Positions 3,836 through 29,000 of a DNA stretch of 30,546 nt are shown here, piece after piece. A program made the position numbers and the translations under genes. The notes under the pieces were generated by a model. The model searched no databases. It was not told the DNA's origin and saw only the letters and a program-made list of their open reading frames with translations. Source of the DNA: a virus; IMG/VR virus record IMGVR_UViG_3300036719_000772, positions 1-30,546 of that record; one strand, given 5' to 3'. The first letter of the stretch is position 1, and each line of letters starts with the position of its first letter.

Positions 3836-3857
3836 GATTCGCCTCCGGGGATAACCC

Positions 3858-4733: not shown

Positions 4734-5018
4734 ATGCTTCAATATGACGTCTTATCAACCGCAATTGCTGCAGGGCAAACTGATGCTGCTGTTTTTGCTG
4801 GTCCTGCTAGGATTAAAGGAATGGTAGTAGGTGTTCCTGCTGCTGGTGGCACTTTAACCCTTAAAAATGGCTCAGCTGGTACCACAGTTTTTAGTTTTGT
4901 AGCTCCCGCAGCAGCTCAATCCCTTAACATAAGCATCCCTGGCGATGGTATTCGTTGCAGTAACGGTATTTATGCAACCACCCCTGCTAATATGACCGTT
5001 ACGGTGTTTTATGGCTAA
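4734..5018 (+). CDS. Small beta-rich hypothetical protein
   Basis: A 94-residue protein, rich in A, G, T and V, starting MLQYDVLSTAIAAGQ. It shows alternating strands (IKGMVVGVPAAGGTLTLKNG; NMTVTVFYG) as in small jelly-roll or immunoglobulin-like structural domains. GGAT lies shortly before the ATG. The 3' end overlaps the next gene by 8 nt. Placement beside the decoration-like gene suggests a virion surface component, but I do not recognise the family. Confidence 0.65.
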   Translation: MLQYDVLSTAIAAGQTDAAVFAGPARIKGMVVGVPAAGGTLTLKNGSAGTTVFSFVAPAAAQSLNISIPGDGIRCSNGIYATTPANMTVTVFYG

Positions 5019-5271
5019 GAACCCTTCCCTTGCTATTGGGCGGGGAGAAAAGCTCCCTGTAAAACAGGGAGCTGGACTTACTGCCAAGGGAAGAGCCAAG
5101 TACAACAAGGCAACAGGTAGTAAATTAAAAGCCCCTGCACCAAACCCAAAAACAAAAGCGGACGCAGGCCGTAAAAAATCGTTCTGTGCCAGAATGTCAG
5201 GAGTAGTAGCGAAAGCTAAGGGTCCTGCAGAGCGTGCAAAAGCTTCATTAAAACGATGGAACTGCGCATAA
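5011..5271 (+). CDS. Small basic protein, resembles DUF6321
   Basis: An 86-residue, strongly basic protein. Recognisable parts are GRGEKLPVKQGAGLTAKGRA at the N-terminus, a K/P-rich linker, and KKSFCARMSGV ... SLKRWNC at the C-terminus. This pattern resembles a small phage family that I believe carries the name DUF6321; function is unknown. The charge suggests nucleic-acid contact. A perfect 10-bp hairpin is embedded in codons 14-21. The start overlaps the previous gene by 8 nt, and the TAA overlaps the next ATG (TAATG). Confidence 0.75.
   Translation: MAKNPSLAIGRGEKLPVKQGAGLTAKGRAKYNKATGSKLKAPAPNPKTKADAGRKKSFCARMSGVVAKAKGPAERAKASLKRWNCA
5051..5073 (+). promoter_or_regulatory. Perfect 10-bp hairpin inside a coding region
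   Basis: AGCTCCCTGT and ACAGGGAGCT are exact reverse complements separated by AAA. The hairpin sits about 40 nt after the start codon at 5011 and is not followed by a T-tract, so it is not a normal terminator. It may protect, process or slow the mRNA. Confidence 0.45.
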
Positions 5272-5507
5272 TGGAAGAAATACAAACAGCTAGGGAGTTA
5301 GCGACACATGCAAACGATATTAAACATCTTCAAGCGGATATGGACAAACTTGTTGGAGACATGGACGAAATTAAAAAGTCGATTCAAATAATCCAAAAAA
5401 CATTGTCTGAAGCAAAAGGAGGCTGGAAAGCCTTGATTTGGGCAGGTGGAGCAGTTAGTGCTGCAACAGGAGTTATTGGCTTTATTATGGGCCATTGGGG
5501 AAAATAA
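5271..5507 (+). CDS. Coiled-coil protein with C-terminal membrane segment (XhlA/holin-like)
   Basis: From the ATG at 5271 the product has 78 residues; an in-frame ATG at 5256 would add five. The later start is preferred because it forms a TAATG overlap with the previous stop, as at other junctions here. Residues 12-48 form a heptad-like helix (HLQADMDKLVGDMDEIKKSI), followed by one hydrophobic segment (ALIWAGGAVSAATGVIGFIM) near the end and a short tail HWGK. This helix-plus-one-membrane-span design resembles XhlA-type or small holin-associated proteins. It lies far from the lysin gene at 16492, so a lysis role is possible but unproven. Confidence 0.65.
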   Translation: MEEIQTARELATHANDIKHLQADMDKLVGDMDEIKKSIQIIQKTLSEAKGGWKALIWAGGAVSAATGVIGFIMGHWGK

Positions 5508-5870
5508 ATGGTAAAACGTGTAAACCCCACCCCTTCTGTTCCTGCAACTCCTGCTAAACAAAACCCTAATGCAACAGACAAGGTAAATAAAAACAAAGTT
5601 GATCCAGGATTTAAAGAAGTATTGGATAAGGTTCGTGGAAAGAGTCAACAAGACGTACCTGATAATTACAAAAGTGGAGGTAAAGTAATGGCAACAAAAC
5701 CCGGCTTATATGCCAATATCGCAGCTAAAAAACGCAGGATCGCTGCGGGTTCTGGCGAAAAAATGAGACCAGTTGGAGCAAAAGGTGCGCCTACCAAACA
5801 GGCGTTTATTAATTCGGCTAAAACGGCTAAAATAGCTAAGCCAGCCAAACGTTCAGCGAGAGGAAGATAA
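5508..5870 (+). CDS. Basic small protein with probable internal start
   Basis: A 120-residue, very basic protein (many K, R, A, P and G). The first part (residues 1-60) is a polar linker; the second (61-120) begins MATKPGLYANIAAKKRRIAA and contains GEKMRPVGAKGAPTKQAF. An ATG at 5688, in frame and preceded by GGAGG at 7 nt spacing, could give the 60-residue second part as a separate protein. The C-terminal half alone looks like a small basic protein typical of environmental phages. It has no cysteines or membrane segment. The gene starts directly after the previous stop. Function is unknown; DNA binding or packing inside the head is plausible from charge. Confidence 0.68.
   Translation: MVKRVNPTPSVPATPAKQNPNATDKVNKNKVDPGFKEVLDKVRGKSQQDVPDNYKSGGKVMATKPGLYANIAAKKRRIAAGSGEKMRPVGAKGAPTKQAFINSAKTAKIAKPAKRSARGR
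5676..5690 (+). promoter_or_regulatory. Internal ribosome-binding site and start codon
   Basis: GGAGG at 5676-5680 lies 7 nt before an in-frame ATG at 5688 within the gene starting at 5508. This is a stronger site than the one at the gene's own start, so a 60-residue product is likely made as well. Confidence 0.5.
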
Positions 5871-6200
5871 ATGGACTATAACGCAAGCAACACAAACCGC
5901 CACAAGCTTATGGCTATGGGCAAACCAATCAAAGCCGCTAAAGGAGGCGAGATGAAAAAATCTGCAACTAAAGCTTCTGCTGGTGCAAAAGCTGATCGCC
6001 AAGGTCGTGCTTTGTTACCCGGCAAAATGGCTAAAAACTTGCCTATGATTGCACCACAGTCTGCGTATAAAAAAGGCGGAGATGTAAAGCCTTCTGCTTA
6101 CGACAAGATGCAAGATAAAAAATTGGCTGCTCATGCAAGCAAGCCAGCAAAGGTAGCCCACAAAAAAATGGGCGGCATGGCTAAACGTAGTTGCAAATAA
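5871..6200 (+). CDS. Basic small protein with probable internal start
   Basis: A 109-residue lysine-rich protein with no cysteine except near the end (MGGMAKRSCK). An in-frame ATG at 5952, preceded by AAGGAGG, would yield an 82-residue form starting MKKSATKASAGAKADRQG. It repeats short basic patches (KKGGDVKPSAYDKM, AHKKMGG). It begins right after the preceding stop and shares the same basic, alanine-rich makeup, so these neighbours may be related in role. No known family is recognised. Possible roles are condensing DNA or joining virion parts; this is inference from charge only. Confidence 0.68.
   Translation: MDYNASNTNRHKLMAMGKPIKAAKGGEMKKSATKASAGAKADRQGRALLPGKMAKNLPMIAPQSAYKKGGDVKPSAYDKMQDKKLAAHASKPAKVAHKKMGGMAKRSCK
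5943..5954 (+). promoter_or_regulatory. Internal ribosome-binding site and start codon
   Basis: GGAGG (5943-5947) with 4 nt spacing precedes an in-frame ATG at 5952 inside the gene starting at 5871. A second nested product is therefore likely, as in the gene before it. Confidence 0.45.
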
Positions 6201-13812: not shown

Positions 13813-15057
13813 ATGTCTTTAATACTAAGTGGAACAGACGGACTATCGGATGTAGACGGCTCCGCTGCTACCCCAGCCATACGAGGCACAGACGCTAATA
13901 CGGGAATCTTCTTCCCAGCCGCAGATACGATTGCGTTCTCCGAGGGTGGTGTTGAGAGTATGCGTATTACTTCTGCTGGCGATGTTGGCATTGGTACTGC
14001 TAGCCCTAATACCTATACTAACTACAAAACTCTCTCTATTTTTGGCACAAACGGCGGTGAGTTTGATTTAGGTGATGGGGCTAATACTCGTTTTAGTTTA
14101 TTTTCCCAAACAACAGCTACACAGATGTATACAGTAGGTGCTATACCTTTAATTTTGGGAACAAATTCCGTAGAACGGATGCGTATTCTTTCTGGTGGTT
14201 CAATTGGTATTAATACATCAAGCCCAACTACTACTTTAACTGTTGATGTTAAATCAAATAGTTATACAAATGGTATTGATATTTCCAACAGTAACAGCTG
14301 GGGATATGGCAGTTCTATTAATTTTAGAAACATTCCAACTAACGGAGGTTCATTAACTACGGTTGCTCAAATACAACAATTTTTTGAAGCAAGCAATAAA
14401 TATAGTTTAAGTTTCTCCACATACAATAGTAGCCTTGCAGAGCGTATGCGTATTACCTCTGATGGTTATTTAAAAGCAAGTAATACTGGAGTATATGTAA
14501 GTCCTACAGGCATTTACCATGAAATGATTTCTGACGGAGATAATACAAGTTTAATTGTAAGAAATACAAATGGAAGTTTAACTGCTGGTGGCGTTCTATA
14601 TGTTGATGCAAACAGAAACACTACAAATAATGCTTTTTATGCGATTGCTTATTACAACAACGGTGCTGGCGCATATAAATTTCAAGTAGCCGATTCAGGA
14701 AATGTAACAAATACAAACAATAGCTATGGTGCTATTTCTGATGTTAAATTAAAAGAAAACATTGTCGATGCAAGCCCTAAACTTGAAGATTTGTGCAAAG
14801 TCAAAGTTCGTCAATACAACCTTAAATCTGACCCTGACCACAAACAAATTGGTGTAGTAGCGCAGGAACTTGAAGAAGTATTTGCTGGGCTAGTAGAAGA
14901 AACCGCAGACAAAGATAGAGAAGGTAACTATTTAGGTACGACTACTAAACAAGTTAAATATTCTGTATTTGTACCAATGCTTATTAAAGCTATGCAAGAA
15001 CAACAAGCCCTTATTGAAAACTTAACAACACGCTTAAATGCGTTAGAAGGAAAATAA
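13813..15057 (+). CDS. Second tail fiber with C-terminal S74 self-cleaving chaperone
   Basis: A 414-residue protein whose N-terminus parallels a stretch of the fiber at 11361: NTGIFFPAADTIAFSEGG, ESMRITSAGDVGIGTASP. The shaft has further ERMRI repeats (ERMRILSGGSIGINTSSP, ERMRITSDGYLKASN). Ser309-Asp310 with DVKLKENIVDASPK opens the S74 domain, followed by KQIGVVAQELEEVFAGLVEE and a terminal coiled coil (QALIENLTTRLNALEGK). The chaperone differs clearly from that at 11361, so the two fibers probably form separate trimers. Confidence 0.87.
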   Translation: MSLILSGTDGLSDVDGSAATPAIRGTDANTGIFFPAADTIAFSEGGVESMRITSAGDVGIGTASPNTYTNYKTLSIFGTNGGEFDLGDGANTRFSLFSQTTATQMYTVGAIPLILGTNSVERMRILSGGSIGINTSSPTTTLTVDVKSNSYTNGIDISNSNSWGYGSSINFRNIPTNGGSLTTVAQIQQFFEASNKYSLSFSTYNSSLAERMRITSDGYLKASNTGVYVSPTGIYHEMISDGDNTSLIVRNTNGSLTAGGVLYVDANRNTTNNAFYAIAYYNNGAGAYKFQVADSGNVTNTNNSYGAISDVKLKENIVDASPKLEDLCKVKVRQYNLKSDPDHKQIGVVAQELEEVFAGLVEETADKDREGNYLGTTTKQVKYSVFVPMLIKAMQEQQALIENLTTRLNALEGK

Positions 15058-15058
15058 A

Positions 15059-15349
15059 ATGGCAACATGGAACATTACCCAAACAGACTACGAAACCGCA
15101 AATGGTTTTATAACTACGGCTCATTGGACTTGCACAGAAGTCGATGGCGAATATAGTGCATCGGTATATGGCACTTGTGGCTTTAGTGGCACACCAACAA
15201 TCCCTTACGCACAAGTAACAATGCAAGAGGTTTTAGATTGGTGTTGGGCTGGCGGTGTCGATAAAAACGCTGTAGAGGAGTCTTTGGCAGCCAATATCGC
15301 CCTACAAAAGAACCCAGTAGTGGAATCAGGTACACCTTGGGCAAGCTAA
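15059..15349 (+). CDS. Small hypothetical protein (DUF7936-like)
   Basis: A 96-residue protein beginning MATWNITQTDYETANGFITT, with AHWTCTEVDGEYSASVYGTC, then TMQEVLDWCWAGGVDKNAVE and a final helix. The start MATWNITQ and the W/C-rich core resemble a small phage family which I believe is called DUF7936. Three of its cysteines could pair or bind metal. It sits 1 nt after the S74 fiber, so it probably serves fiber assembly. Function is unknown. Confidence 0.7.
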   Translation: MATWNITQTDYETANGFITTAHWTCTEVDGEYSASVYGTCGFSGTPTIPYAQVTMQEVLDWCWAGGVDKNAVEESLAANIALQKNPVVESGTPWAS

Positions 15350-15383
15350 CAGCCTTTCTTTGTTAGCATTTTAGGAGAACGAC

Positions 15384-15599
15384 ATGGGCGAGAAAAAAAC
15401 AACCCCCATTACCATCGACAACGTTGATTACAACTTGGAAGACTTAACCCAAGAGCAACAAGTCTTGTTTAACCACTGCTTGGACTTAGACCGTAAGATT
15501 AGCTCGGCACAGTTCAACTTAGACCAACTACAGGTCGGTAAACAAGCCTTCTTCAAGATGCTCAAGGATTCGTTAACCAAAGAACAGACAGTGCAGTAA
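15384..15599 (+). CDS. Small helical protein (DUF6447-like)
   Basis: A 71-residue protein with AGGAG 7-8 nt upstream. It starts MGEKKTTPITIDNVDYNLED, a strand pair (TIDNVDYNLEDL), then two helices (EQQVLFNHCLDLDRKISSAQ; LQVGKQAFFKMLKDSLTKEQ). The TIDGVEY-like beginning resembles a small phage family known to me as DUF6447. It is the last gene before a hairpin at 15603, so it may end the fiber transcription unit. Function is unknown. Confidence 0.7.
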   Translation: MGEKKTTPITIDNVDYNLEDLTQEQQVLFNHCLDLDRKISSAQFNLDQLQVGKQAFFKMLKDSLTKEQTVQ

Positions 15600-15602
15600 C
15601 CG

Positions 15603-15624
15603 AGGGGGTTCGCCCCCTATTTAA
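15603..15624 (+). terminator. Possible intrinsic terminator between fiber and lysis genes
   Basis: AGGGGG, TTCG loop and CCCCCT make a tight stem (15603-15618), followed by only a short, interrupted T-run (ATTTAATG). It sits in the gap between the fiber unit and the lysis genes. It is more likely a partial terminator or attenuator than a full stop, since no clear promoter is visible afterwards. Confidence 0.55.
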
Positions 15625-15645
15625 TGAGGTATTTTAAATTGGGAT

Positions 15646-16095
15646 ATGGCAGACGAACTTGGATTGGCGGCTGGTGCCAAGGGCATCAGCGAAGGATTTA
15701 AAACCGGGCGAGAAGCTGGTAAAGAGATCGCCAAGAACATCGAGGATGTTCAAAAGGAAGCAGTCGATGTAGCAAAAGAACGGGCAAATGCAAGAATCCG
15801 TGAGCGCAGAGAAGCAGAGTTTAAGAAGGAACGGGCAATATTTAAAGCCCTTGAGGAGTACCGACACCGTAAGGAAATATCGGATGAGGAGTATAAATTA
15901 CGGGTAGAGTTTATTAAAAAGTTTGGTACTAAAGAATGGGATAAAGTCATTCAGATTAAGAATGACATAGAAAAAATAGAAAAGGCAGACAAAGAATACT
16001 TTGATGCCGAGCTGTCAAAAGTAAGGTGGGTGCAGTTTTGGTGTTTTTTAGTAGCTGCTTGGATTTCATGGTATATCGTATGGGGGAGTAAATAA
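15646..16095 (+). CDS. Coiled-coil protein with one C-terminal membrane span, lysis-associated
   Basis: A 149-residue protein. After a short N-terminal part (MADELGLAAGAKGISEGF) it is mostly charged helix (about 20-120), then one hydrophobic segment near the end, WVQFWCFLVAAWISWYIVWG, about residues 127-146. It overlaps the holin gene by TAATG and thus heads the lysis group. A C-terminal anchor with a cytoplasmic coiled coil resembles an antiholin or regulator rather than the usual i-spanin, whose membrane segment is N-terminal. The role is inferred from location; the start has a poor ribosome site. Confidence 0.68.
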   Translation: MADELGLAAGAKGISEGFKTGREAGKEIAKNIEDVQKEAVDVAKERANARIRERREAEFKKERAIFKALEEYRHRKEISDEEYKLRVEFIKKFGTKEWDKVIQIKNDIEKIEKADKEYFDAELSKVRWVQFWCFLVAAWISWYIVWGSK

Positions 16096-16502
16096 TGTTT
16101 CCATTGACCGCAATCGTAGACGTTGGGATGAAAATCTTAGATAAGTTTATCCCCGATCCAGAAGCAAAGGCCAAAGCTCAACAAGAACTTCTTAAGATGC
16201 AACAAGAAGGGCGCCTAGCTGAACTTAATGCCGATAACATTGAAGCCCAAGAACTGACCAAGCGCCAAGAAGCGGATATGGGCAGCGACTCTTGGCTATC
16301 CAAGAATATCCGTCCTATGACCTTAATCTTTATTCTGGGTGCCTACTTTATTTTTGCCATGATGTCTGCTTTTGGCTCCAACGCCAACGAGAAGTATGTA
16401 GAATTACTTGGACAATGGGGCATGTTGATTATGTCGTTTTATTTTGGCGGCAGGACCTTAGAAAAGATTATGGACATGAAAGCTAAAAAAGATGCAAAAT
16501 AA
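16095..16502 (+). CDS. Holin, GTA/3TM holin-like
   Basis: A 135-residue protein. The N-terminal amphipathic part (AIVDVGMKILDKFIPDPEAK) and a charged helix lead to GSDSWLSKNIRPMTLIFILG, a signature of the GTA-type holin group. Hydrophobic segments lie at about 74-93 and 103-120, and the C-terminus is short and basic (MKAKKDAK). Holins make lesions in the inner membrane at a set time so that lysin reaches the wall. The endolysin follows immediately, overlapping by 11 nt. Confidence 0.83.
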   Translation: MFPLTAIVDVGMKILDKFIPDPEAKAKAQQELLKMQQEGRLAELNADNIEAQELTKRQEADMGSDSWLSKNIRPMTLIFILGAYFIFAMMSAFGSNANEKYVELLGQWGMLIMSFYFGGRTLEKIMDMKAKKDAK

Positions 16503-17022
16503 TTTTGAGAGTTGCCTAAAAAACCTGTTAAAACACGAGGGAGGCTTCGTAAATCACCCTCAAGACCCAGGTGGCATGACTAACCTTGGAGTTACCAAGG
16601 CGGTTTACGAAGCGTGGGTAGGGCATGAAGTTACTGAAAAAACAATGCGAGAGCTTACTCCCGAAGCCGTAGCACCGTTATATAGAAAGAAATATTGGGA
16701 TGCTTGCCGAGCTGATGAGCTTGTATCTGGTCTTGACTATGCTGTTTTTGACTGCGCTGTTAACTCAGGGGCAGGGCGTGCTATTAAGTTTTTACAGAGT
16801 TGTGTTGGGGTTAATCCTGACGGTGGTTTTGGCAGCCTTACTATGGCTGCCGTAAATCAATTCCAAGGGGACGTATCTAACACCTTGGTTAAAGAGTATT
16901 GTGAAAAACGCTTAGACTTCTTAAAATCACTTAAGACCTTTGAAACGTTTGGCAAAGGCTGGGAACGCCGTGTAAACGAAGTAAAAGATGAAGCCTTAAG
17001 GATGGCAAATGCCACTATCTAA
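16492..17022 (+). CDS. Endolysin, GH108 N-acetylmuramidase
   Basis: A 176-residue lysin. The N-terminal domain shows the GH108 core with catalytic Glu16 in LKHEGGFVNHPQDPGG, then MTNLGVTKAVYEAW and an acidic-aromatic helix around PLYRKKYWDACRADEL. The second half (SGLDYAVFDCAVNSGAGRAI; CVGVNPDGGFGSLT) is the peptidoglycan-binding part that commonly follows. It cuts the glycan strands of the host wall. There is no signal peptide, so it depends on the holin for export. Start and end overlap the holin and nozzle genes, so lysis is embedded in the tail operon. Confidence 0.9.
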   Translation: MQNNFESCLKNLLKHEGGFVNHPQDPGGMTNLGVTKAVYEAWVGHEVTEKTMRELTPEAVAPLYRKKYWDACRADELVSGLDYAVFDCAVNSGAGRAIKFLQSCVGVNPDGGFGSLTMAAVNQFQGDVSNTLVKEYCEKRLDFLKSLKTFETFGKGWERRVNEVKDEALRMANATI

Positions 17023-18946
17023 GTTACAGTTTCGCCCTGGAATTAACAAGGAAGTCACTAACTACACGGGTGAGGGTGGTTATTTTGAGTGCGACAAGAT
17101 TCGCTTTCGTGCAAATATGCCCCAAAAAATTGGTGGCTGGATTCAACTATCTCCAATTAATTTCCTTGGAACTTGTAGAGCGCTGTGGAATTGGGTCACG
17201 CTTAACGGCGATAACCTAGTTGGAGTTGGTACAAACCTAAAGTATTACATTGAAAAGGGTGGTGGCTACAACGACATTACCCCAATCCGTACAACAGTTA
17301 GTCCCATGTTGGGACCTCAGCCCCCTGCTACAGGAAACCCTTTTGCTGCAACAGCCGGGTCTGCTACGATTGTAGTAACGGACATTGGCCACGGGGCTAC
17401 AAACAATGACTTTGTTACGTTTAGTGGAGCAACAAGCCTTGGTGGCAATATTACTGCAGCCATCCTAAACCAAGAGTACCAAATTACTTTTATTGATAGC
17501 AATCAATATAGCATCCAAGCACGAGCCGTATCGTCTGTCGCAACTCCAGGAGCCCCTGTATTAGCAAGCGCTGGAGACACCGGGGGAGGCGGGAATGCCG
17601 TAGTTGCAAGCTACCAGATCAACGTAGGCTTAGACAAGTATGTGGGTGGCAACGGCTGGGGAGCAAGTTTTTGGAGCCGCCTAACCTGGGGCTCTGGCGC
17701 CCAGCTAACGGCGGGTGAGCAGCTACGCCTTTGGACAAACGACAACTACGGCGAAGACCTGCTCATCGCTCCTCGGGGAAGCGTTCCTTATTATTGGGAC
17801 GCTACTACCGGAACAACCACTCGTGCGGTGAGCCTTTCTAGTAAATCTACAACTGAGGGTTATTTGGGTCAGTTTGTTCCTACCCAGACTAACCAGATTG
17901 TAGCTTCAGCTATTCAGCGGTTTGTTATCTGTTTTGGCTCAAATAGCTATGACCCAGATAATGCAAACACAACTTTTGACCCAATGCTGGTGCGTTGGTC
18001 AGACCAAGAAAACCCTTATCAATGGGTTCCAGCAGCAACCAACCAAGCTGGAGAATTTAGATTAAGTAATGGTTCGTTTATCCTAGCTGCTAGAAACACC
18101 CGCCAAGAAATCTTAGTTTGGACAGATTCAGCAATCTATTCCATGCAATACCTTGGACCACCCTTTGTCTGGGGCTTTAACATTATCCAAGACAACGTTA
18201 CTTTACTTGGACCAAATACTGTAATTACAGCAAACAACATTACATACTGGATGGGTAGCGACAAGTTTTATTTCTATGATGGCCGAGTGCAAACCTTGCC
18301 TTGCTCACTAAGATCGTTTGTTTTTGGTCGCTTAAATAAAGCTCAAGCATGGCAGTGCCATACAGGCTACAACGAAGAGTTTAATGAAATCTGGTGGTTC
18401 TACCCATCTACTGGGTCAGACATAATTGACAGCTATGTAATCTACAATATTATTGAAGGTAGCTGGTATTACGGCACTATGGGACGTACTGCATGGCTAC
18501 ACTCTGGATTACGTGAGTACCCCTTTGCTGCGGACTATAATGGTCGCCTTTTGTACCATGAAGCCTCTGTGGACGACGAAGCAGGTGCCACTCCACAGCC
18601 AATTGCGGCTCATATACAAACCTCTGACTTTGACATTGGTGACGGGCATAACTTTGGTTTTGTATGGCGTATTTTGCCTGACTTGACTTTTGCTGGGTCT
18701 ACGGCAGCCAACCCACAAGTCACCTTGACAGTTAAACCTAGGGTTAATTCTGGAACTCCCTATGGCACGTCAAACAACCCCACAGTGACCCGAACGGCTT
18801 CTTTCCCTGTGGAAGAGTATACCGGTCAGGTATATACCCGTATTCGTGGCCGCCAAATGGCATTTAGGATTGACTCTACAGGACTTGGCGTGCAATGGCA
18901 GCTTGGTAGCCCTAGAATAGATATCAGACCCGATGGACGCAGATAA
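17009..18946 (+). CDS. Tail nozzle/hub protein (P22 gp10-like, tentative)
   Basis: A 645-residue beta-rich protein. It starts inside the end of the endolysin gene (14 nt overlap), with AAGG 5-8 nt upstream. The N-terminus LQFRPGINKEVTNYTGEGGY followed by KIRFRANMPQKIGGW resembles nozzle or packaged-DNA-stabilising proteins that cap the neck in short-tailed phages. Later parts have repeated tryptophan-strand blades (SFWSRLTWGSG; DNYGEDLLIAPRGSVPYYWD; YSMQYLGPPFVWGFNIIQDN), compatible with a propeller-like fold. The C-terminus ends QLGSPRIDIRPDGRR. The role is inferred from these patterns and from neck genes upstream. Confidence 0.72.
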   Translation: MPLSKLQFRPGINKEVTNYTGEGGYFECDKIRFRANMPQKIGGWIQLSPINFLGTCRALWNWVTLNGDNLVGVGTNLKYYIEKGGGYNDITPIRTTVSPMLGPQPPATGNPFAATAGSATIVVTDIGHGATNNDFVTFSGATSLGGNITAAILNQEYQITFIDSNQYSIQARAVSSVATPGAPVLASAGDTGGGGNAVVASYQINVGLDKYVGGNGWGASFWSRLTWGSGAQLTAGEQLRLWTNDNYGEDLLIAPRGSVPYYWDATTGTTTRAVSLSSKSTTEGYLGQFVPTQTNQIVASAIQRFVICFGSNSYDPDNANTTFDPMLVRWSDQENPYQWVPAATNQAGEFRLSNGSFILAARNTRQEILVWTDSAIYSMQYLGPPFVWGFNIIQDNVTLLGPNTVITANNITYWMGSDKFYFYDGRVQTLPCSLRSFVFGRLNKAQAWQCHTGYNEEFNEIWWFYPSTGSDIIDSYVIYNIIEGSWYYGTMGRTAWLHSGLREYPFAADYNGRLLYHEASVDDEAGATPQPIAAHIQTSDFDIGDGHNFGFVWRILPDLTFAGSTAANPQVTLTVKPRVNSGTPYGTSNNPTVTRTASFPVEEYTGQVYTRIRGRQMAFRIDSTGLGVQWQLGSPRIDIRPDGRR

Positions 18947-20334
18947 TGGCTTCGTCGCTTACTATTCGCCCGACCAAGGCTCCTAACTTAATTGTTGCAA
19001 GACCAGACTATAACCAGCAGCAACAAGAACTTTTTAAAAACCAGCTACGAATTTATTTTAATGAGCTAGATAATGCAATAGGACAATTGGTGCAAGCTAT
19101 GAGCGGAACAATTAATGACCCAACCTACGTAACTTTTCCCCCTACTAACGTAGATGCCTTTAACCGCCTAGTCGTAGCGTCTCCCTATACGCTATTTGAC
19201 AGTCAAAATCGTTTTGCTGCTGACAATCAATTTGATACCAGCACAGCTACTGGGGGGTCTACTACCTACCTACCTAATGAGTCTACGGTTCAGTTAAGCG
19301 TTACCACCAGCAATGGTTCTGAAGTCGTCCGTCAGTCATATCGAACAATGCCATACCAGCCAGGCAAAGGTCTTGGGTTGTTAGCTACGTTTACTATGAA
19401 CGCTGGTAAAACAGGTTTACGTCAGCGAGTAGGCTACTTTAATACCCAAAACGGGGTGTTTTTTCAGCAAAACGACGGCGTCTTGTCGTTTGTTTTACGT
19501 TCATATACCAGCGGTGCCCCTGTAGATACGGTGACCACTCAAGCTAATTGGAATGGTGATAGGCTAGATGGAACAGGACCTAGCGGTCGTATTATTGACG
19601 TAACCAAGACCCAGATTCTGGCTATTGATTTTGAGTGGTTAGGCGTAGGAGATGTGCGGTGCGGGTTTTTTATTGATGGTCAATTTGTTGTATGCCACAC
19701 CATCCATAACGACAACATACAGACTACGGTCTATATGACCACGGCTATCCTGCCTGTTCGCTATGAGATTCGCAATACGGCTGGTACGGCTTCAAGCTCG
19801 TCTATGAAACAGATTTGCTCTAGTGTGTATTCGTCTGGGGGCTATGAACAGACGTCAATTGACCACGTGGCTAGGCGAACTACCATATTTAATAACATTA
19901 CCACCGCAGCAACCTTCTTTCCCATAGTGTCTATACGGCTGGCTTCAACTGCTTTGGGTGCTGTAGTCCTACCTAATCGGGTACAGTTTTTGCCAACAAC
20001 CAGTCAAAACTATGAAGTGGCTTTATTAAAGAATCCAACCTTAACTGGGGCGACATGGGCTGCTGCTGTGCCAACGGACGCTAATGTGGAGTTTGATGTA
20101 GCGGCTACAGCTATATCTAACGTAGGTACTATTGTGCAAACTGACTATGTAACCGCCTCTGGAAGTGCGGGGGTAAGCGCAACAAGTGCCGCAACGGGGT
20201 ACAACTTTGACCTACAGCTAGGCGCATCTTTGGCAGGGGTCAGTGATATATACACCCTAGGGGTCAGAACCGTCTCTGGAGCTACTAACGGAGATGGCGT
20301 AGGCTCTATTTCCTTCTATGATTTAACGCAATAA
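18946..20334 (+). CDS. Large beta-rich virion protein
   Basis: A 462-residue protein starting at a TAATG overlap. A helical N-terminus (NQQQQELFKNQLRIYFNELD) precedes a strand-rich body with a jelly-roll look: RQSYRTMPYQPGKGLGLLAT, RQRVGYFNTQNGVFFQQND, FEWLGVGDVRCGFFIDGQFV. The C-terminal 120 residues form a separate G/S/T-rich domain. The jelly-roll part recalls lectin-like carbohydrate-binding domains, so it may be a tail or head fiber. No catalytic motif is recognised. It is followed by a 51-nt gap with a GGAGAGG ribosome site. Confidence 0.65.
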   Translation: MASSLTIRPTKAPNLIVARPDYNQQQQELFKNQLRIYFNELDNAIGQLVQAMSGTINDPTYVTFPPTNVDAFNRLVVASPYTLFDSQNRFAADNQFDTSTATGGSTTYLPNESTVQLSVTTSNGSEVVRQSYRTMPYQPGKGLGLLATFTMNAGKTGLRQRVGYFNTQNGVFFQQNDGVLSFVLRSYTSGAPVDTVTTQANWNGDRLDGTGPSGRIIDVTKTQILAIDFEWLGVGDVRCGFFIDGQFVVCHTIHNDNIQTTVYMTTAILPVRYEIRNTAGTASSSSMKQICSSVYSSGGYEQTSIDHVARRTTIFNNITTAATFFPIVSIRLASTALGAVVLPNRVQFLPTTSQNYEVALLKNPTLTGATWAAAVPTDANVEFDVAATAISNVGTIVQTDYVTASGSAGVSATSAATGYNFDLQLGASLAGVSDIYTLGVRTVSGATNGDGVGSISFYDLTQ

Positions 20335-20385
20335 AATGATACCATTCTATACAAACCATTTACCGCTTATGGAGAGGCCCTGACC

Positions 20386-22515
20386 ATGGCTCAAGAAGGC
20401 ATTGCAACGCTACCCCAATCACCTGAAAACGCCGAAATGCAAACTTTTTCGGGAGCCCTAGATTCAACCAAAAATGCTGTAACGCAGCAAGTTGGCCCAG
20501 AGGCCATGGGTGGTTATGAACAGACCATGGATCAGATGGTTAGTTCCTTAAATCTTCCAGTAGAAGAACTCCAAACTTTAATGGAAGTTTTGAAGTATTT
20601 ATTGCAAAACGAGCAACAATATCCCCAGCTCCGCCAACGTTTAATCCAAGAAGCTGGATTAGACCCAGAAGATATCCCTGAAGAATTTGATCGTGGCTAC
20701 CTGACCACTATGATGGTTGTTGTACAAGAAGCCCTTAACAGGGCTCAAGGCAGCGGAGCTCAAATGCCACAGCCCCAAGGCTTTCAAAAAGGTGGATTAG
20801 CAGGCGCAGCAGAGGCATTACGTCAAAAAGGCCGTGGTGGCGACACCATCTTAGCCCATATTAATCCCCAAGAAGCCCGTGTGCTTAAGTCTATGGGCGG
20901 CGCAGGCACCATTAATCCTGCTACTGGGATCATGGAATTTAAGGGTGGCGGAGGTGGTGTTTTTGGCGGCATTGGTAAAGCAGTAGGCGGCGCATTTAAG
21001 GCCGTTGGTAATGCTGTTAAATCCGTAGTTTCTTCTCCTGTTGGACGGATTGTTGCTACAGTAGCCCTGACTGCGGCTCTTGGGCCAGCGGGTTTAGCAA
21101 TTGCGGGACCAGCGTCAGCGGGATTTGCTGCTTTAGCAATACCCGCAGCTCTTGCCGCATCAGCCGTTTCACTAGCTGGTGGGTCTAATCTTAAACAAGC
21201 TTTAATAGCAGGTGCAACGTCTGGAGCCCTAGCGGGATTTGCTCCTAGTATCTCTAACATGTTACCTGGAACAGGTGGTTATTTAAACGCTGCTGCTACT
21301 GGTGCCATTATGGGTGCTGGCTACGGGGCAGCAACCGGTCAAAACATTGGTCAGGCTGCTTTGACAGGTGGTGTATTAGCGGGTGGAATAAGCGCTTTTG
21401 GTGGAGCAAGTGCCATGGGCCCAGGGCAAGCTCCTGCTCCAATTACAGACAGTAGCCAAGTATTAAACGCAGACGGGACTAGAGCTCCGCTTAGCGGAGG
21501 AGCGGTTTCTCCTTCAAGCCAAGGTATTAGTACACTAACTAGTGGTCAAACTAATTTAACTGCTCCTACAGATGTAGTAGGGGGCTATGGCCCTGATACG
21601 GGATTTGCACCTATTTCAAGTGAAGTAGGTGGCTATGGCCCAGATACAGGGTTCCCACCTCAAACAAGAGGCTCAGAGTTAATTCCAGGAAATGTAAACA
21701 CAGAAGTAACCTACACCGATAAAAGACTTCCTTTACCAAACGCAAGAGATGTGGAGTCTCAAGCTGGTGGTACTTACGGTGGCAGGTCGCCTACTGCAGA
21801 AGAATATCTGATGAGAGAACAGGGTATGCCACGATCTGTGCCTCAATCTGACAGCACAGGAATTGGCAGCTACTTTGACAAAGCAAGTGATTACTTATTT
21901 AGCAAAGACCCAAGTAATCCAGGGTTCTTTTATAACAGTAAAGGAAACATTAGTATTCCTGCTGTTGCTGGAACCGTGCTTGCGGGTGGTGCGTTAATGG
22001 GTGGATTTACACCAACCCAACCCGCTCCCCCTGGAATAGTAGACCGCAGCGTTACAGGCGAAACATTAGTAGACCGTGATCCTTCTCGCTATATCGTAGG
22101 CAATATACCAAACTTTAATACTGGTCAGCCAAACATGCCCCCGGTAACTTACACAGCAGCACCTCAGTACGGGCGCTCTGCTGTTCCTACCTACACGCCT
22201 CCAGCAGGAACAACAACCGCAACCAACTATCAGCCCATTCAACAGCCATACAATAATCCGTATAATTATTCATTTATGCCTAGGGTATATGCAGCTAAAG
22301 GCGGAATAACCAGTATTTACCCAAGAAAAACAGGAAAGATAGATGGCCCTGGGACAGGTACTTCGGATTCAATTCCAGCGATGTTGTCTGATGGCGAATT
22401 TGTATTGACTGCCAAAGCTGTTAAAGGTGCAGGTAAAGGAAGTCGCAGAGAAGGTGCAAAAAAACTATATCGTATGATGCACGCACTAGAAAAGAAAGCA
22501 GGAGGTAGAGTCTAA
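20386..22515 (+). CDS. Internal virion/ejection protein with tape-measure-like motifs
   Basis: A 709-residue protein. Residues 1-125 are helical and acidic; residues 149-185 hold GRGGDTILAHINPQEARVLK followed by SMGGAGTINPATGIMEF. Residues about 185-345 are G/A-rich and hydrophobic, as in proteins that cross membranes during DNA ejection. A P/T/Y-rich linker follows, then residues 653-703 with DGPGTGTSDSIPAMLSDGEF and TAKAVKGAGKGSRREGAKKL, a motif seen at the ends of phage tape-measure proteins. GGAGAGG lies about 8 nt before the ATG. The role is inferred from composition, order and lack of a tape measure elsewhere. Confidence 0.7.
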   Translation: MAQEGIATLPQSPENAEMQTFSGALDSTKNAVTQQVGPEAMGGYEQTMDQMVSSLNLPVEELQTLMEVLKYLLQNEQQYPQLRQRLIQEAGLDPEDIPEEFDRGYLTTMMVVVQEALNRAQGSGAQMPQPQGFQKGGLAGAAEALRQKGRGGDTILAHINPQEARVLKSMGGAGTINPATGIMEFKGGGGGVFGGIGKAVGGAFKAVGNAVKSVVSSPVGRIVATVALTAALGPAGLAIAGPASAGFAALAIPAALAASAVSLAGGSNLKQALIAGATSGALAGFAPSISNMLPGTGGYLNAAATGAIMGAGYGAATGQNIGQAALTGGVLAGGISAFGGASAMGPGQAPAPITDSSQVLNADGTRAPLSGGAVSPSSQGISTLTSGQTNLTAPTDVVGGYGPDTGFAPISSEVGGYGPDTGFPPQTRGSELIPGNVNTEVTYTDKRLPLPNARDVESQAGGTYGGRSPTAEEYLMREQGMPRSVPQSDSTGIGSYFDKASDYLFSKDPSNPGFFYNSKGNISIPAVAGTVLAGGALMGGFTPTQPAPPGIVDRSVTGETLVDRDPSRYIVGNIPNFNTGQPNMPPVTYTAAPQYGRSAVPTYTPPAGTTTATNYQPIQQPYNNPYNYSFMPRVYAAKGGITSIYPRKTGKIDGPGTGTSDSIPAMLSDGEFVLTAKAVKGAGKGSRREGAKKLYRMMHALEKKAGGRV
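21577..21654 (+). repeat. Two-copy in-frame repeat (VGGYGPDTGF)
   Basis: The ten residues VGGYGPDTGF occur at 21577 and again 48 bp later at 21625 within the 709-residue gene, with different synonymous codons. It may be a duplicated glycine-rich spacer. Confidence 0.6.
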
Positions 22516-23585
22516 TGCCTGAAATTACCGAACAAATAGTCCGGGAAGCCCCCGAGATAGAAGCCTATAAAATAGGCCTTTTAAGGTCTGCAAAAGGCTT
22601 AACTGACACGGCTGTTAATTTACCAGGGTACAACATTGCTGGGTTTAACCCAGACCAAATTAGAGCTTTTGAACAAGCACGCTCAGGTATTGGTGCCTAC
22701 CAGCCTTACTTATATGGTGGCACACAAGCCTTAGAAAGAGGTATTGCTACTACTGGTGAAGCCGCTGATGTATTGCGTGGTGCAGACACTCGTAATCAAT
22801 TCCAAGCAGCGCAGGCTGCACAAAATGCTGCTGTGCAAGGAACCATGGGCGCTGGCCGACAGCTTGGTCAGCAAGACATTCAGCAATACATGAACCCTTA
22901 CTCTAACTTAGTTTTGCAACAACAGTTAGGGGAAATGAATCGCCAAGCAGCTATGCAACAGCAAGCTTTGCAGGGTCAAGCCGTTCGAGCAGGTGCGTTT
23001 GGTGGATCACGGGAAGGTATTCAACGTGCTGAGTTAGGTCGCAATTTAATGCAGACACAAAACCAAGCTATTGCTCAATCACTGCAACAAGGCTATGGCC
23101 AAGCGTTAGGTACTGCTCAACAACAGCAACAGGCACAACTAGCCGCTGCTGGGCAATTAGGTAATCAAGCTCAAGGAATTGGTGCGTTGGCTGGTCAGCA
23201 GTATGGAATTGGTCAAAACATGGCTCAGTCCCTTTCTGGAATGGGCGCTCAGCTTGGCAACCTTGGTGTTCAGCAAGGCGCTCTTGGACAGTCTGCTCAA
23301 CAGCTTGGACAGCAAGACGTTAACTTCTTGTACAACATTGGCCAACAACAGCAAGCTCTTACCCAGCAACAAAACGATGCACAACGCAATGCGGCATTGC
23401 AGCAAGCTTACGAGCCTTATCAACGTTTGGCATTCTTGTCAGATATTTACAAAGGTGCACCATCGTCTCAGCAGTCTATTTCAGCCGCTACTGCACCTAC
23501 TCCAAGCGCATTCCAGCAAGCCGTTGGAACAGGTATCGCTGGTCTAGCAGCAGGCACAGCCGCTAAAAAAGCAGGATTATTCTAA
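22515..23585 (+). CDS. Glutamine/alanine-rich internal virion protein
   Basis: A 356-residue protein starting at a TAATG overlap with GGAGG about 10 nt upstream. The N-terminus (IVREAPEIEAYKIGLLRSAK) is a short domain; residues about 90-320 are extremely Q-, A- and G-rich (QQQQQAQLAAAGQLGNQAQG; QLGNLGVQQGALGQSAQQLG). A conserved-looking patch, QQYMNPYSNLVLQQQL, precedes AGAFGGSREG. The end is hydrophobic (GTGIAGLAAGTAAKKAGLF). Long Q/A helices are typical of ejected core proteins, as in P22 gp7/gp20 or T7 gp14. The role is inferred from composition and order. Confidence 0.7.
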   Translation: MPEITEQIVREAPEIEAYKIGLLRSAKGLTDTAVNLPGYNIAGFNPDQIRAFEQARSGIGAYQPYLYGGTQALERGIATTGEAADVLRGADTRNQFQAAQAAQNAAVQGTMGAGRQLGQQDIQQYMNPYSNLVLQQQLGEMNRQAAMQQQALQGQAVRAGAFGGSREGIQRAELGRNLMQTQNQAIAQSLQQGYGQALGTAQQQQQAQLAAAGQLGNQAQGIGALAGQQYGIGQNMAQSLSGMGAQLGNLGVQQGALGQSAQQLGQQDVNFLYNIGQQQQALTQQQNDAQRNAALQQAYEPYQRLAFLSDIYKGAPSSQQSISAATAPTPSAFQQAVGTGIAGLAAGTAAKKAGLF

Positions 23586-23594
23586 GGAGAAGGT

Positions 23595-26036
23595 ATGGAT
23601 TCGAAGGTATTTGAACGGGCGATGTTTAAAGCGGAAAGCAAGCCTCGCAAAGCCGATTCTGGAATTATGCAAGGGTTTGATGACGAAGAGCCAAAAGATA
23701 TTGAAGAGAATGACGACGAGATGATGGAAGAAGTATCCCGTCGTTCACCTAGCTCTCCTGAAATTCTAATGAATAATTTACGGGGCGACATGCGCTCGGT
23801 TGACGCTCGCTATCAAGAATTAGCGGAGATGGTAGGCGAAGATGTTGCGATGGAGACGCCTCCTGAAGTGTTGGCAATGTTGCAGTCTCAGTTTACAGCG
23901 CAACAAGCTCCTGCTGGAATTAGTGGCTTACCTGCTGGTGGAGCGCCTATGGCCCCACCTCCTCCCCCACAAATGGGTGGTGGTATGCCTCCTGCTCCTC
24001 CCCAAATGCCACAAGGACCAATGCCCACGGATCAAGGGCCAGCACCACAAGGGTTTGCTTATGGTGGCATGGTAGATAGCGCCCCTGGTTATGGCCCAAT
24101 GAGCATGATGGCTCCTCCAATGTACCAAGGTGCAATGGCACCACAAGGGTACGCAAAAGGGGGTATTGCAAGCCTACCTCAGTCGGGTGCTAACTATAAC
24201 CAAGGTGTCAGCTACTCAGGACAACTAGAGCCAGGCGCTAATTACATTCAAGGCGCTGGTCGCAACGGCGATACGATGGTTGCGCATATGACTCCTCAAC
24301 AACACCAAGTTCTTTCGATGATGGGAGGGGGCTCGACCACCAACCCAAAAACAGGTCTGCCTGAGCATTACATGGGTGCAGGAATGGCTACAAACTTAAT
24401 GCAGCGCATTCAGCCCTACGCTCAGGCAGCAAATCAAATGATTGGTAGCCGGATGGCACCTGTATTAACGCCACCTAGCATTCAACAAAGTCGTACTACA
24501 TTAGGCACGTTTGGTCCTAAAACAGTAGAAGGAATGGAGCTAACCTATCCTACGCTTACGCAACGGATTGGCATGGCAACAGAGCCTGTACGTAACTACA
24601 TTGCTAATATGCCTGCCTCACAAAAGGCAATCGGTGCGTTATCCACTATCCCAGGGGGTGCAGCAGTAATAAACGCCATGGGTGGCGGAGAGCGTGTAGA
24701 AGCCATGCCTGCTACTGATGTGCCTGCTGTTATTGGCACAGATGCGGCTGGTAATCGTGTTTATTCAGCTCCTCCAAAAGCAGAAGTTCCTAAAGAGCCA
24801 GTAGCAGAAGAAAAGGCAGCGCCAAGTAAAGTAGTGGCAGACACCACTCCTTCCGCTGCACCAAAGACGGTAGAAGAGCTTATTACTAGGCAAACAAAGG
24901 CTGAAAAAACAAATCGCCTAGAAGATTACATGAAAGAAAACCTGCCTATATTTGAGAAGTATATGGGCGGGGACAAAGAAGCCTCGCAAATCCAAGCGTT
25001 GTTATTGTTGGCAGATGCTGGTCTTGAGTACGCTACCAAGCCTGCTCGTACAGGCATGATGGCCTTAGCTAACGCATTCAAGCGTATGCCTGCTGGCCTT
25101 AGCCAGTTGGCTGCACAAGAAGAAGCTCGTAGAACACAGATTCGTGGTGCTGCCCTTACCTCTGGCTTGCAGACTATTGCTGCGGAAGATAAGGCTACTG
25201 CTGCAATTCAACGAGAGCTTTTAAAGAAAGCAGTTAGCGCTGGGGAATTAGTTCCCACAGATCGTGGCGCAGGATTAACTTCTTATGTAGACAAGCAAGG
25301 TCAGCCCAAAGGCATGCGGATTGACCCACAAATTGTTAATAGCTTCTTGAACAGCCGCTTTACACCGCAGGTTCAAAAAAATAAAGAAGGTAATTTAGTT
25401 GGGTTTGACACTCCGTATGCTCGTGTAAGCCCTGCATCACAGACCCTTAACGAAGACAAAACTACTCGTGAGCGTTTAGCAAATGAAGTATCTCGTCAAG
25501 AGTCTGCGTTGGCTGCAATGGATGATGCAATTAAAGAATACTCAGGCGCATTTGGTCCTAAAGCGTTTTTCTCTAATTTGAAAAACAACATCTTGGTTCC
25601 TGTGTCTCCACTAGACCCTAACGTCATGACTGAGCAACAACGTACCAAAATTAACATGGCAATCAATAATGCGACCAAGGCAATTGCAAGGACAGGCGAC
25701 ACAGGAAATATTGCTGTAGCTGAACAAAACGCAGCCGCTTCAATTTTAGGTGACAAGCCAGGTACATTCTTCTCTGATTCTCAGAGCGCTTTGAAACGCA
25801 TGATGACTGTGCGTACATCGTTAGCTAACCAGCGTTTGAATACTGCAGCTCAATTAGGTTGGATTAACCAAGACGTTCAGTTAGAAGTGCCAAACCTTGG
25901 CACGCCTGCTGATCCTATCCCACAAGAAAAGCTAACCTATTTGAAGTCGCTCAAACAAGTTAACCCAAATGCTCAGGTTTACATTAACATTAACGGTAAA
26001 TCCACTCCTGTTTTGTTGTCGACATTGAAGGACTAG
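23595..26036 (+). CDS. Internal virion/ejection protein
   Basis: An 813-residue protein with AAGGAG before the start. The N-terminus is charged and acidic (DEEPKDIEENDDEMMEEVSR); a P/M/G/Q-rich spacer follows (about 110-200). At residues 222-261 is GRNGDTMVAHMTPQQHQVLS, then MMGGGSTTNPKTGLPEHYM, closely paralleling residues 149-185 of the 709-residue protein. The C-terminal half (about 430-813) is long helix, with FTPQVQKNKEGNLVGFDTPY and a coil around NEVSRQESALAAMDDAIKEY. No catalytic motif is recognised. It probably belongs to the internal core packed in the head. Confidence 0.7.
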   Translation: MDSKVFERAMFKAESKPRKADSGIMQGFDDEEPKDIEENDDEMMEEVSRRSPSSPEILMNNLRGDMRSVDARYQELAEMVGEDVAMETPPEVLAMLQSQFTAQQAPAGISGLPAGGAPMAPPPPPQMGGGMPPAPPQMPQGPMPTDQGPAPQGFAYGGMVDSAPGYGPMSMMAPPMYQGAMAPQGYAKGGIASLPQSGANYNQGVSYSGQLEPGANYIQGAGRNGDTMVAHMTPQQHQVLSMMGGGSTTNPKTGLPEHYMGAGMATNLMQRIQPYAQAANQMIGSRMAPVLTPPSIQQSRTTLGTFGPKTVEGMELTYPTLTQRIGMATEPVRNYIANMPASQKAIGALSTIPGGAAVINAMGGGERVEAMPATDVPAVIGTDAAGNRVYSAPPKAEVPKEPVAEEKAAPSKVVADTTPSAAPKTVEELITRQTKAEKTNRLEDYMKENLPIFEKYMGGDKEASQIQALLLLADAGLEYATKPARTGMMALANAFKRMPAGLSQLAAQEEARRTQIRGAALTSGLQTIAAEDKATAAIQRELLKKAVSAGELVPTDRGAGLTSYVDKQGQPKGMRIDPQIVNSFLNSRFTPQVQKNKEGNLVGFDTPYARVSPASQTLNEDKTTRERLANEVSRQESALAAMDDAIKEYSGAFGPKAFFSNLKNNILVPVSPLDPNVMTEQQRTKINMAINNATKAIARTGDTGNIAVAEQNAAASILGDKPGTFFSDSQSALKRMMTVRTSLANQRLNTAAQLGWINQDVQLEVPNLGTPADPIPQEKLTYLKSLKQVNPNAQVYININGKSTPVLLSTLKD

Positions 26037-26037
26037 C

Positions 26038-29000
26038 ATGGCTCAAATTACCACACCAGATGGTCAAGTGATTGACCTAGACACTGGCACAGTTGTTGGA
26101 AGAACCGAAGCCCCTGTACCTAAGTCAAAGTTTGAGATACCAGGAAATCCGTATGACTTAGCTAAGCAAGCCAGCTATGGCTTTAATGCTGCCTTGTTTT
26201 CTCTTCCAGATGCTGCTGTTCGCCAGATTGGTAAAGCACTGGGGTACGATGAAAAAAATGTACAGACCTTAACTAAGATTTTTAATAAAGGCGATACAGG
26301 CCCAAAGAACTCTGAAGAGCGATACGCTCGTGCTATTGCAGAGGGTATTGGTGCAAACTTACCTATTACAGGTATTTTAGGGTTTGCTGCTGCAAGCCAA
26401 AAGTTAGCTGCCCCACTTGCTGCCGATGCCGGAGTGTTAAAACGGGTTGCAAAAGAGACCCTAGACTTTATTCGTAAGAACCCAAAAGCAGCCCTAGCGG
26501 CAGACATTACTTCTGGTGGTGCGTTTGGTCTTGCCCAGCAATACACAAAAGAAGAAGAGATGGGCCCGTTGGCTCAAGAGCTAGTCCCACTTGGCGCAGC
26601 TATTGTTGCACCAATCGGAGGAGCTGCCGCAGCTAAAGTTGCTTCTACTGTTAGCCCTAGTGGTATTGCTGCTCGGTACTTAAAACAAGTAGTAAGCCCT
26701 TCCGAGCAAAAACTAAGTGAAGTTGGAAAAGAGATTGCTGGAGAGTATGGTCCATTTACCCGACCAATTGCTAACCTGTTAGTCCCCCGTGCAGAGCGAG
26801 CCGTGGGCAAAGCTCTAAGCAAAGGGGAAGTCCAAGAAACACTCAGAAAAGCAGAACAACTAATCACGGACCTCGGAGCACAAGGCGTTAGATTAAACAC
26901 CGCCGAGCGTACCATGTTGCCTCAGTTCTTGATTGAACAGGGCAATCTAGTAAAAAATATGGCCCCAGAGCAGCTACAAAAAGAGCTTGCCCGTCGTGCC
27001 AGCAACCTAGCTGAGTTTGATAACATCATTGAGCGCTTCTCTCCTAAAGCAAACATGCCTATTGAAGAAGCAATTCTTAAAGTAAAAACAGATTCGGAAG
27101 AGTTGCAAAACGGTTTAATACAAAAAATCTCGCAAGAGAAAGCGGTTGAAGCAGATCGGGTTGCTAATCGCTACTCTTCTATTGATAAGAACTTAGTAGG
27201 AAATGAGCTGCGTAATACTATTTTAAGCAGCGGGGAAAGCACCTTTTTTAATTTAAGAAATGTAGCTGACCGCATGGGATTACGCCGTAACTTTACAGAT
27301 GAGGACGGCGTGCCTCTTCCCACTCGTGACAACGATGGCAAGTCTTTATTCCCCGCATTTAATATCGAAAAAGACATTAATGCTATTACTGCAAAGTACA
27401 ATGTTTTAACAGGGCCTATTAAAGAATACAGTCCTTACTTGGCAAACATACTGGCACGTTACAAAACTAGACAACAAGCCAAAGGCACAGATGCGTTTGA
27501 AAATGCGTTAGTAAAAGAAATTGCAGAAATTCTTGCTAAAAAGAGGCGGCCTGAAAGTCCCCCCGGGCCTATGGCACCTTATCTGGCGCCGTCTGAACTT
27601 GCAAAAGATGCAATAGACGCTGATCTAAAGTTTGTGCAAATGCAAGAAGGCAACGCTAAATTTATTGTTGACTCTTTAATGCGTCCGGCTGCTGGAACTA
27701 AAAAACGCCCTGGCTTAGCGGATTTAGAACCAAGCCAACAAACTACTTTATTAGCCCGTTCTTTTGACATTGACCCCGCAGAGCTAAAAGCGGCGCAAGA
27801 CCGTGCTATGGCGTCCGCTAAAAAAGTAGGCCAAGTTGATATTAACTTCCCCGAAGCAATTGAATTAATGCAAGCGGCCACCCAATCACGGAACCTAGCC
27901 GTTCAGCGTTTTACCGATGCTCAGTTTGCGGGGCGTGGGAGACAAGCTGCACAAAAAGATTTAGACAAAATTAATGCTGTCTACAAAGACGTAGAAAAAA
28001 TGTTGTTTGATGCTGTGCCTAAAATGGGTAAAGAATACACAGACTTTAAGCAAGTCTATAACGACATATATGGCGGTGCATATGAGCGTTATTTACCTAT
28101 TCTTCTTGGTGCAAAACGGCCTACAGGAGAGTTTTTAACCCCCAATGAAGCTGTAGTTAACGAAGCATTTAAAAACGCTGCAAATCTTAGAGACATGAAT
28201 ATCCTGGTGTCAGACACCCAACAGGGAAGAGACCTCATGGCTCGTGCATCAATGGATTGGCTGCGTAGCAAAAACATTTTGGATAAAGACGGGTTAGTTG
28301 ATCCCAACAAACTGCAAGCTGTAATAAATAGTAATAAAGCGATTATTAACGCTATGCCTGATGTAGTTCGTCAAAACATTACTGACGACTTAGAAATAGG
28401 CAAAGCGGTGTCTGCTCGTATTGGACAGCTAGAAACTCGTAAAAACGCAGCAATAGACGATGAATTAAACAAACTAATTGCTAAAAGCACAAGAGAAGGT
28501 GCTGACCCCAGCGAGCTAATTACCCGTGCCTTGCGTGACCCGGCAGATATGCGTTTGTTGGTTAAATCGCTAGAAGGCTCTCCAGAGCGTTTAGAGGCAT
28601 TACGCCGTGCTGTCTACAAAGAAGCTGCCGACCCTAACGGCAAAGTAATGATTTCGCAGTTCTTGGACCAAGCTAATCCGAAGTCGCTGTCGTTTTTATT
28701 TAGCGAAGAGCAACTTGGAAACTTACGCAAGATTGGTGAGTTAGAAAGATTAATTAAATCCTCTCCTGATGTTGCAAACATTCCTTCGCCGTTTGAATCA
28801 ACTAGCGAAAGACTTGCTAAGACAGTAGGCACGAGCCTCCCTGGCTTAACTAGCTTGGGTCGTTCTATTATGGAAGGCCGTACAGGCGTTACTTGGCCTA
28901 CAGCCTACGTTCTTACCCGCTTCGTAGGTCGTCAAGAGTACGGCATTCTTGACCGTGTGATGCAACGTGCGGTTGAAGATGCGGACTTTGCAAAAGCGTT

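Follow-up and report, generated by a model that had tools for sequence, protein, structure and literature searches.

Why would a phage place a membrane-anchored helical protein at the head of its lysis genes, directly before the holin? The question arises in a freshwater phage whose whole virus record, IMGVR_UViG_3300036719_000772 (30,546 b; here "the window"), holds a three-gene lysis group in the order of a 149-aa protein that we name CCA, a holin, and a GH108 lysin (Table 1). The first-pass annotation of this DNA had offered two roles for CCA, i.e., an antiholin or an alternative way of achieving the outer membrane (OM) step of lysis. Our analysis leans toward the first: at a probability of roughly 0.45, CCA would be a tail-anchored, cytoplasm-facing lysis-timing factor of antiholin-like character. 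Its retention in lysis operons with or without spanins makes a lysis regulator a likelier reading than a spanin replacement.

Table 1. Positions of the lysis-group features and of the XhlA-like gene in the window
Feature	Position	Strand	Basis
CCA, 149-aa C-tail-anchored helical protein	15646..16095	+	ORF, relatives, dN/dS, structure model
C-terminal membrane span of CCA, residues about 127-146	16024..16083 (approximate)	+	Hydropathy; model helix 95-146
Holin, GTA_holin_3TM family, charged arm ahead of hydrophobic part	16095..16502	+	Pfam PF11351, PHROG_3427
GH108 endolysin with peptidoglycan-binding domain	16492..17022	+	Pfam PF05838, PF09374; PHROG_315
78-aa XhlA-like small protein, helix and C-terminal span	5271..5507	+	PHROG_1193; Pfam XhlA below cut-off

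The lysis group and its anchored helical protein

Holin and lysin are as clear as had been claimed, both lying above their Pfam cut-offs. The holin meets GTA_holin_3TM (7.7e-12, 46.2 bits versus a cut-off of 24.8) and matches the PHROG_3427 holins (2.1e-24); the lysin meets Glyco_hydro_108 (8.7e-29, 100.3 bits versus 21.2), with further matches to PF09374 (1.8e-5) and to the PHROG_315 endolysins (4.7e-52). The same annotation had described an anchored coiled-coil protein overlapping the holin. Its C-terminal span and its overlap stand, the latter being the single base shared by CCA stop and holin start (TAATG); the coiled coil is better set aside, because hydrophobic periodicity runs along the rod without a clear heptad peak, making "long helical rod" the safer label for what the sequence suggests. 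A stem-loop at 15603-15618, upstream of CCA, is no more stable than its shuffled versions (z 0.27), and no terminator is called there. Elsewhere in the window, two genes within the structural region (3016-3859, - strand) run on the opposite strand, one encoding an acetyltransferase (Pfam Acetyltransf_1, 3.6e-6) and the other small and HNH-like by eye.

CCA is a real gene and not a chance frame, as follows from its 395 relatives in one IMG/VR scan (best 80 of the 395 kept) and from a median dN/dS of 0.075 over 2011 pairs drawn from 65 distinct window-like sequences, i.e., it is under purifying selection. Synonymous variation displays no clearly protected stretch. Scans of IMG/VR from other members returned 340, 489, and 312 relatives, the best 80 of each being kept and the four sets overlapping. 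By tblastn, a relative was found in one of 50,697 phage records (49% identity), and a pattern search across bacterial genomes turned up two, each from a metagenome bin. CCA thus belongs to a large, widespread, and unnamed family common in lysis operons. No family match of weight emerged from Pfam, PHROG, or NCBIfam (best values 0.29, 0.05, and 0.042, respectively), and a literature search of limited wording, with many subscription papers outside its coverage, found no description of the family.

The modest-confidence structure model (pLDDT 62, pTM 0.32) places helices at residues 8-76, 80-93, and 95-146. No match of weight was found among solved structures (best 0.045), and none of 26 matches in a viral fold library reached E <=0.001, the query model itself being weak. 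Hydropathy gives CCA one span, at about residues 127-146, and an N terminus with neither a hydrophobic stretch nor a lipobox; nothing in the sequence, neither signal nor lipobox, would take the rod into the periplasm. The rod (about 125 residues) is therefore most likely cytoplasmic. This missing export signal is a stronger topology argument than the Lys/Arg count, which favors the N side over the C side in 121 of 123 distinct sequences (the other 2 being balanced) and leans by construction, a mean of 1.4 residues following the span as placed. Scans for a lipobox within the CCA gene or in its antisense frames gave no credible nested lipoprotein.

Holins and spanins around CCA

Pooled CCA loci number 309, of which 235 are non-identical. 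In 164 of these 235, with starts taken from the longest frames, the next lysis gene (the holin or a small gene before it) begins at -4, -1, or 0 b from the CCA stop; in 11, no next lysis gene was found. As the first gene of the group and abutting the next one, CCA is probably translationally coupled to it. Holins and spanins were counted in the 183 non-identical loci with at least 1800 b downstream. There, a holin follows CCA in 181, being of the window's class, whose three divergent versions were joined through iterated profiles, in 137 and of a short 81-aa class, which lacks the long arm of the former, in 44. The two remaining loci are L346, in which a holin-like gene lies directly upstream of CCA and a lysin-like gene downstream (by eye), and L021, discussed below. 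On a CCA tree of 122 distinct rows, holin type changes 25 times (least possible, 4); it still clusters, with a shuffled mean of 57.1 and none of 200 shuffles as low as 25. The short-holin group taken by itself requires 8 changes, 6 of which are forced by well-supported branches. In 25 of the 183 loci (e.g., L007, 2505-2759), CCA and holin are separated by the gene of an 86-aa protein that has a charged helix and an N-terminal span and never co-occurs with Rz; this protein is a possible i-spanin-like or other envelope factor.

The genome of the window's phage kind is tiled by the window and two related records, G001 (34,035 b) and G004 (57,811 b). G001 equals window positions 14141-30546 at 99.9% and continues for 17.6 kb beyond, G004 agrees with the window at 91-99% in aligned stretches, and the tiling follows from the two G004 ends, which fall on G001 2.8 kb apart. 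Rz and Rz1 profiles gave zero matches across all three records. A six-frame lipobox scan of the window returned two weak TTG-start frames, neither convincing; relaxed lipobox frames in the window, G001, and G004 together number nine, eight lying over longer ORFs and one not. Among ORFs below 260 aa, hydropathy spans were confined to CCA, the holin, the XhlA-like gene, shadow frames, and a handful of genes in the distal part. The earlier claim that the window holds no visible spanins is thus borne out, also by the profile search of the rest of the genome for which the first-pass annotation had called. These heuristics, which could miss divergent spanins, support a phage kind without a detectable spanin.

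Could CCA itself be the missing spanin, in an inverted layout with a periplasmic rod and a C-terminal inner-membrane (IM) anchor replacing Rz/Rz1? The lack of a detectable spanin in this phage kind would fit, as would the lack of an Rz match among 103 loci of the CCB and CCC families introduced below (the Rz profile having been built from CCA loci). Moreover, in the available text of Kongari et al. (PMC6139136), no spanin is reported for 91 of 677 phage genomes and other spanin layouts are left possible, N-out proteins with a C-terminal span being named as a possibility outside their survey. We nonetheless consider this reading very improbable, as CCA lacks an export signal, the residues before its span are positive, and an Rz-type gene lies beside it in 44 of the 183 loci (none in 139) with selection on CCA persisting: dN/dS is 0.119 with Rz (96 pairs) and 0.089 without (1410 pairs), i.e., still purifying and slightly weaker beside Rz. 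Kept under purifying selection in both settings, CCA does not find support as a stand-in for spanins, and the suggestion that it is a different solution for the OM step is contradicted. CCA also resembles neither known spanin type, having its sole span at the C-terminal end and none at the N terminus where an Rz-type i-spanin would carry one, and having neither the lipoprotein signal nor the lipobox of a u-spanin of the T1 gp11 type.

The Rz-type call is based on layout: the gene has an N-terminal span and a nested lipobox frame and lies between the holin and the lysin. For 43 of the 44 loci, a permissive script run without a control detected a lipobox-like frame overlapping Rz; in the 44th, L245 (pair 943-1374 with 1145-1324), the frame was missed by the script and is plain by eye. 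Layout carries the call since the L245 pair matches PHROG spanin profiles weakly (0.016 and 0.0027). Of 28 Rz loci in an earlier set, 25 had an overlapping lipobox-like frame and 3 were cut at the contig end.

Rz presence tracks holin class exactly, with an Rz-type gene in 44/44 loci of the short holin versus 0/137 of the window's class (and 0/2 of those without a downstream holin), and with at least 6 switches forced by well-supported branches of the CCA tree. CCA loci may constitute a natural experiment in which a short-holin and Rz/Rz1 module has been exchanged for a long-armed holin without a spanin. OM disruption in spanin-less phages is called an open question in the available text of PMC12819732; here, that question narrows to the differences between two holin modules. 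A charged lysin tail as the OM factor was considered and set aside: 10 distinct GH108 lysins with Rz and 15 without are similar in their lengths and in the charge of their ends.

Two observations count against a spanin-less reading. Two records (L274, 9137, - strand, in G009; L276, 12386, + strand, in G011) encode, close to the lysis genes and on the strand opposite to them, an 83-aa predicted lipoprotein, possibly a lone o-spanin or an exclusion lipoprotein. Also, L238, a CCB locus too short for the CCB counts, holds an Rz1-like lipoprotein frame. Rz1 profile matches in G009 and G011 were discarded as frames over longer ORFs, a false frame from L043 (in G011) having entered the profile. A relative of the holin occurs in 29 phage records, of which two were read widely and ten up to 3 kb from that gene; in five of these ten, six weak lipobox frames were found, none judged by eye to be an o-spanin, and one of the ten, DSL-LC04, carries a CCA relative.

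XhlA-like genes, related families, and CCA outside the lysis cassette

XhlA proteins of PBSX-type lysis operons consist of a helix followed by a C-terminal span and are encoded upstream of the holin. The 5271 protein of the window, raised at first pass as similar to CCA, smaller, and possibly its partner, matches the PHROG_1193 hemolysins (5.9e-5) and, below cut-off, Pfam XhlA (0.0038, 17.8 bits versus 34.7). The likeness in plan stands. A fixed partnership lacks support, with an XhlA-like gene directly upstream of CCA in 87 of the 215 loci with enough upstream sequence and, by profile, in 6 of 16 records searched whole (window included), some of the other ten being fragments and G001 starting past the part that would carry the gene. 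A small, very basic protein adjoins the XhlA-like gene in the window (5011-5271), and one of like look follows the lysin in some relatives (L082, 22136-22363; L084, 2404-2637; L244, 2821-3012).

These genes bear on the reading of CCA as a required holin co-factor that would help the holin open, as XhlA with XhlB, and exert no brake. CCA has the XhlA-like plan and the slot before the holin, XhlA-like genes precede it in those 87 loci, and in PBSX, per the available text of PMC5589764, xhlA, xhlB, and xlyA are all required for vesicle formation. Nevertheless, we regard this as unlikely: searches with the Pfam XhlA profile (PF10779) found no sequence relation between the two proteins, CCA coexists with different holins, and the separate XhlA-like gene in the 87 loci implies that CCA is not the XhlA itself.

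CCA does have a relative among helical proteins of similar position. The CCC family (77 loci) was found via the DSL-LC04 gene directly upstream of a holin of the window's class. The DSL-LC04 paper mentions this holin, and no mention of the gene upstream was found in the available text (PMC10611076). Profile alignment makes CCA-CCC homology firm (hhalign probability 98.2, E 4.5e-14, 137 columns). For a further family, CCB (best 80 of 590 relatives kept), no direct homology to CCA was detectable in profile comparisons, and the link appears only through CCC, whose profile picks up CCB (2.6e-5) among 13,275 ORFs. Crude motif labels divide the rows of that search into 55 CCC, 314 CCA, 44 CCB, and 23 "other", six of the latter having been viewed and all six beginning like CCC. 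Conversely, the CCB profile recovered neither CCC nor CCA from the same ORFs, and CCC-CCB hhalign gave a probability of 6.6 only; the relation of CCB to CCA and CCC is thus suggestive. PHROG_32327, of unknown function, is matched nearly full length by CCB (2.7e-10) and, more weakly, likewise by CCC (0.001).

The window's holin class follows CCC in 40/40 loci and CCB in 60/63. Counts by the "N202" tag were left out for CCC, as the tag can apparently match the holin frame (judging from L440, where the holin frame is next). CCB has a Lys/Arg excess on the N side of its span in 70/70 sequences, and its model (pLDDT 69.8, pTM 0.44) consists of four helices, the last long and running through the span. 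In the isolated Pseudomonas phage ZRG1 (L435, 1084-1515), a lysis group is headed by a 143-aa protein that is helical, carries a C-terminal span, and has no strong PHROG match; a muramidase and a holin of the window's class follow.

CCA is not confined to lysis cassettes. In L021 (record G007, taken as T4-like from its gene content), CCA is present with no holin, lysin, or other lysis gene adjoining; in place of lysis genes, it is followed at 5001-6187 by genes that are IscU- and IscA-like by eye. The CCA gene is the sole DNA match above 300 b between G007 and the window, and G006, G010, and G013 share with the window the CCA gene and one or two further short matches only, as if CCA were a mobile, host-directed gene. 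CCA could then be a superinfection exclusion or takeover protein riding in the lysis operon with no role in lysis. The exchange of holin, lysin, and spanin around a conserved CCA would agree with this, as would L021 and the cytoplasmic part of CCB, which is almost invariant, its span being variable. We place this first among the alternatives and still consider it unlikely, given that an unrelated function would hardly account for the close spacing in 164/235 loci and the downstream holin in 181/183.

A putative lysis-timing factor and its known counterparts

For CCA as a lysis-timing factor, the evidence comprises its spacing, the near-constant downstream holin, purifying selection, an N terminus without a hydrophobic stretch, the Lys/Arg bias of CCA and CCB, the place of its homologue CCC, likewise before a holin, the recurrence of the window's holin class after CCC and CCB, and the precedent of T4 RIII. 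Against it count the 25 holin changes on the CCA tree, with which a specific holin contact is not obvious, and the 81-aa holin without a long arm; L021, with CCA outside the lysis cassette, counts against a dedicated holin partner, and the sparse DNA matches of G006, G007, G010, and G013 to the window, of the kind a mobile gene would leave, also weigh against this reading. The antiholin remains our leading idea, fitting as it does the position and the probable coupling and topology of CCA. Close holin spacing, the membrane anchor, and a presumably cytoplasmic rod together suggest control of lysis from inside the cell.

Model: CCA would be anchored in the IM by its C-terminal tail, with the helical rod facing the cytoplasm. 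The rod would hold the holin, either via the helical arm of the holin or via a shared host factor, until release, and in this way would time lysis from within the cytoplasm, as a brake or checkpoint of the antiholin kind; it would neither cross the periplasm nor perform the OM step. A shared holin feature or a host factor is proposed as the contact because holins are exchanged and CCA once occurs outside the lysis cassette. What the sequences show is the gene with its position, conservation, and spacing, and its co-occurrence with spanin genes; we infer topology, coupling, contact with the holin or a host factor, and brake direction. A more speculative version, to which we give low odds, is a holin-independent checkpoint in which a CCA-type rod senses a conserved host factor and is retained as holins, lysins, and spanins are exchanged; in this version, the exchange of holin modules would imply that the long-armed holin cassette without a spanin disrupts the OM otherwise or need not do so. 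As a common and unnamed lysis-operon protein family, CCA deserves functional study.

Comparison with known systems places CCA apart from the spanins. With lambda Rz/Rz1 and T1 gp11, it has in common a membrane anchor and a place by holin and lysin, but it lacks an N-terminal span, a lipobox, and periplasmic routing, and it co-occurs with Rz-type genes in relatives. A C-terminal span is also described in the available text of PMC8879335, on a lysin and not on a separate protein. CCA shares its plan and the slot before the holin with XhlA, yet it is longer, has no XhlA match, and coexists with separate XhlA-like genes. The two families that match PHROG_32327, CCB and CCC, are helical, with a C-terminal span and a position upstream of the holin; CCA itself has no match to this PHROG and is linked to it only through CCC. 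A precedent for the proposed action is T4 RIII which, according to the available text of PMC11413866, is a cytoplasmic antiholin that binds the cytoplasmic domain of the holin T and alone cannot hold off lysis stably. CCA differs in being membrane-anchored, and searches of Pfam, PHROG, and NCBIfam gave no RIII-type match for it; by analogy, CCA would likewise target the holin from inside the cell.
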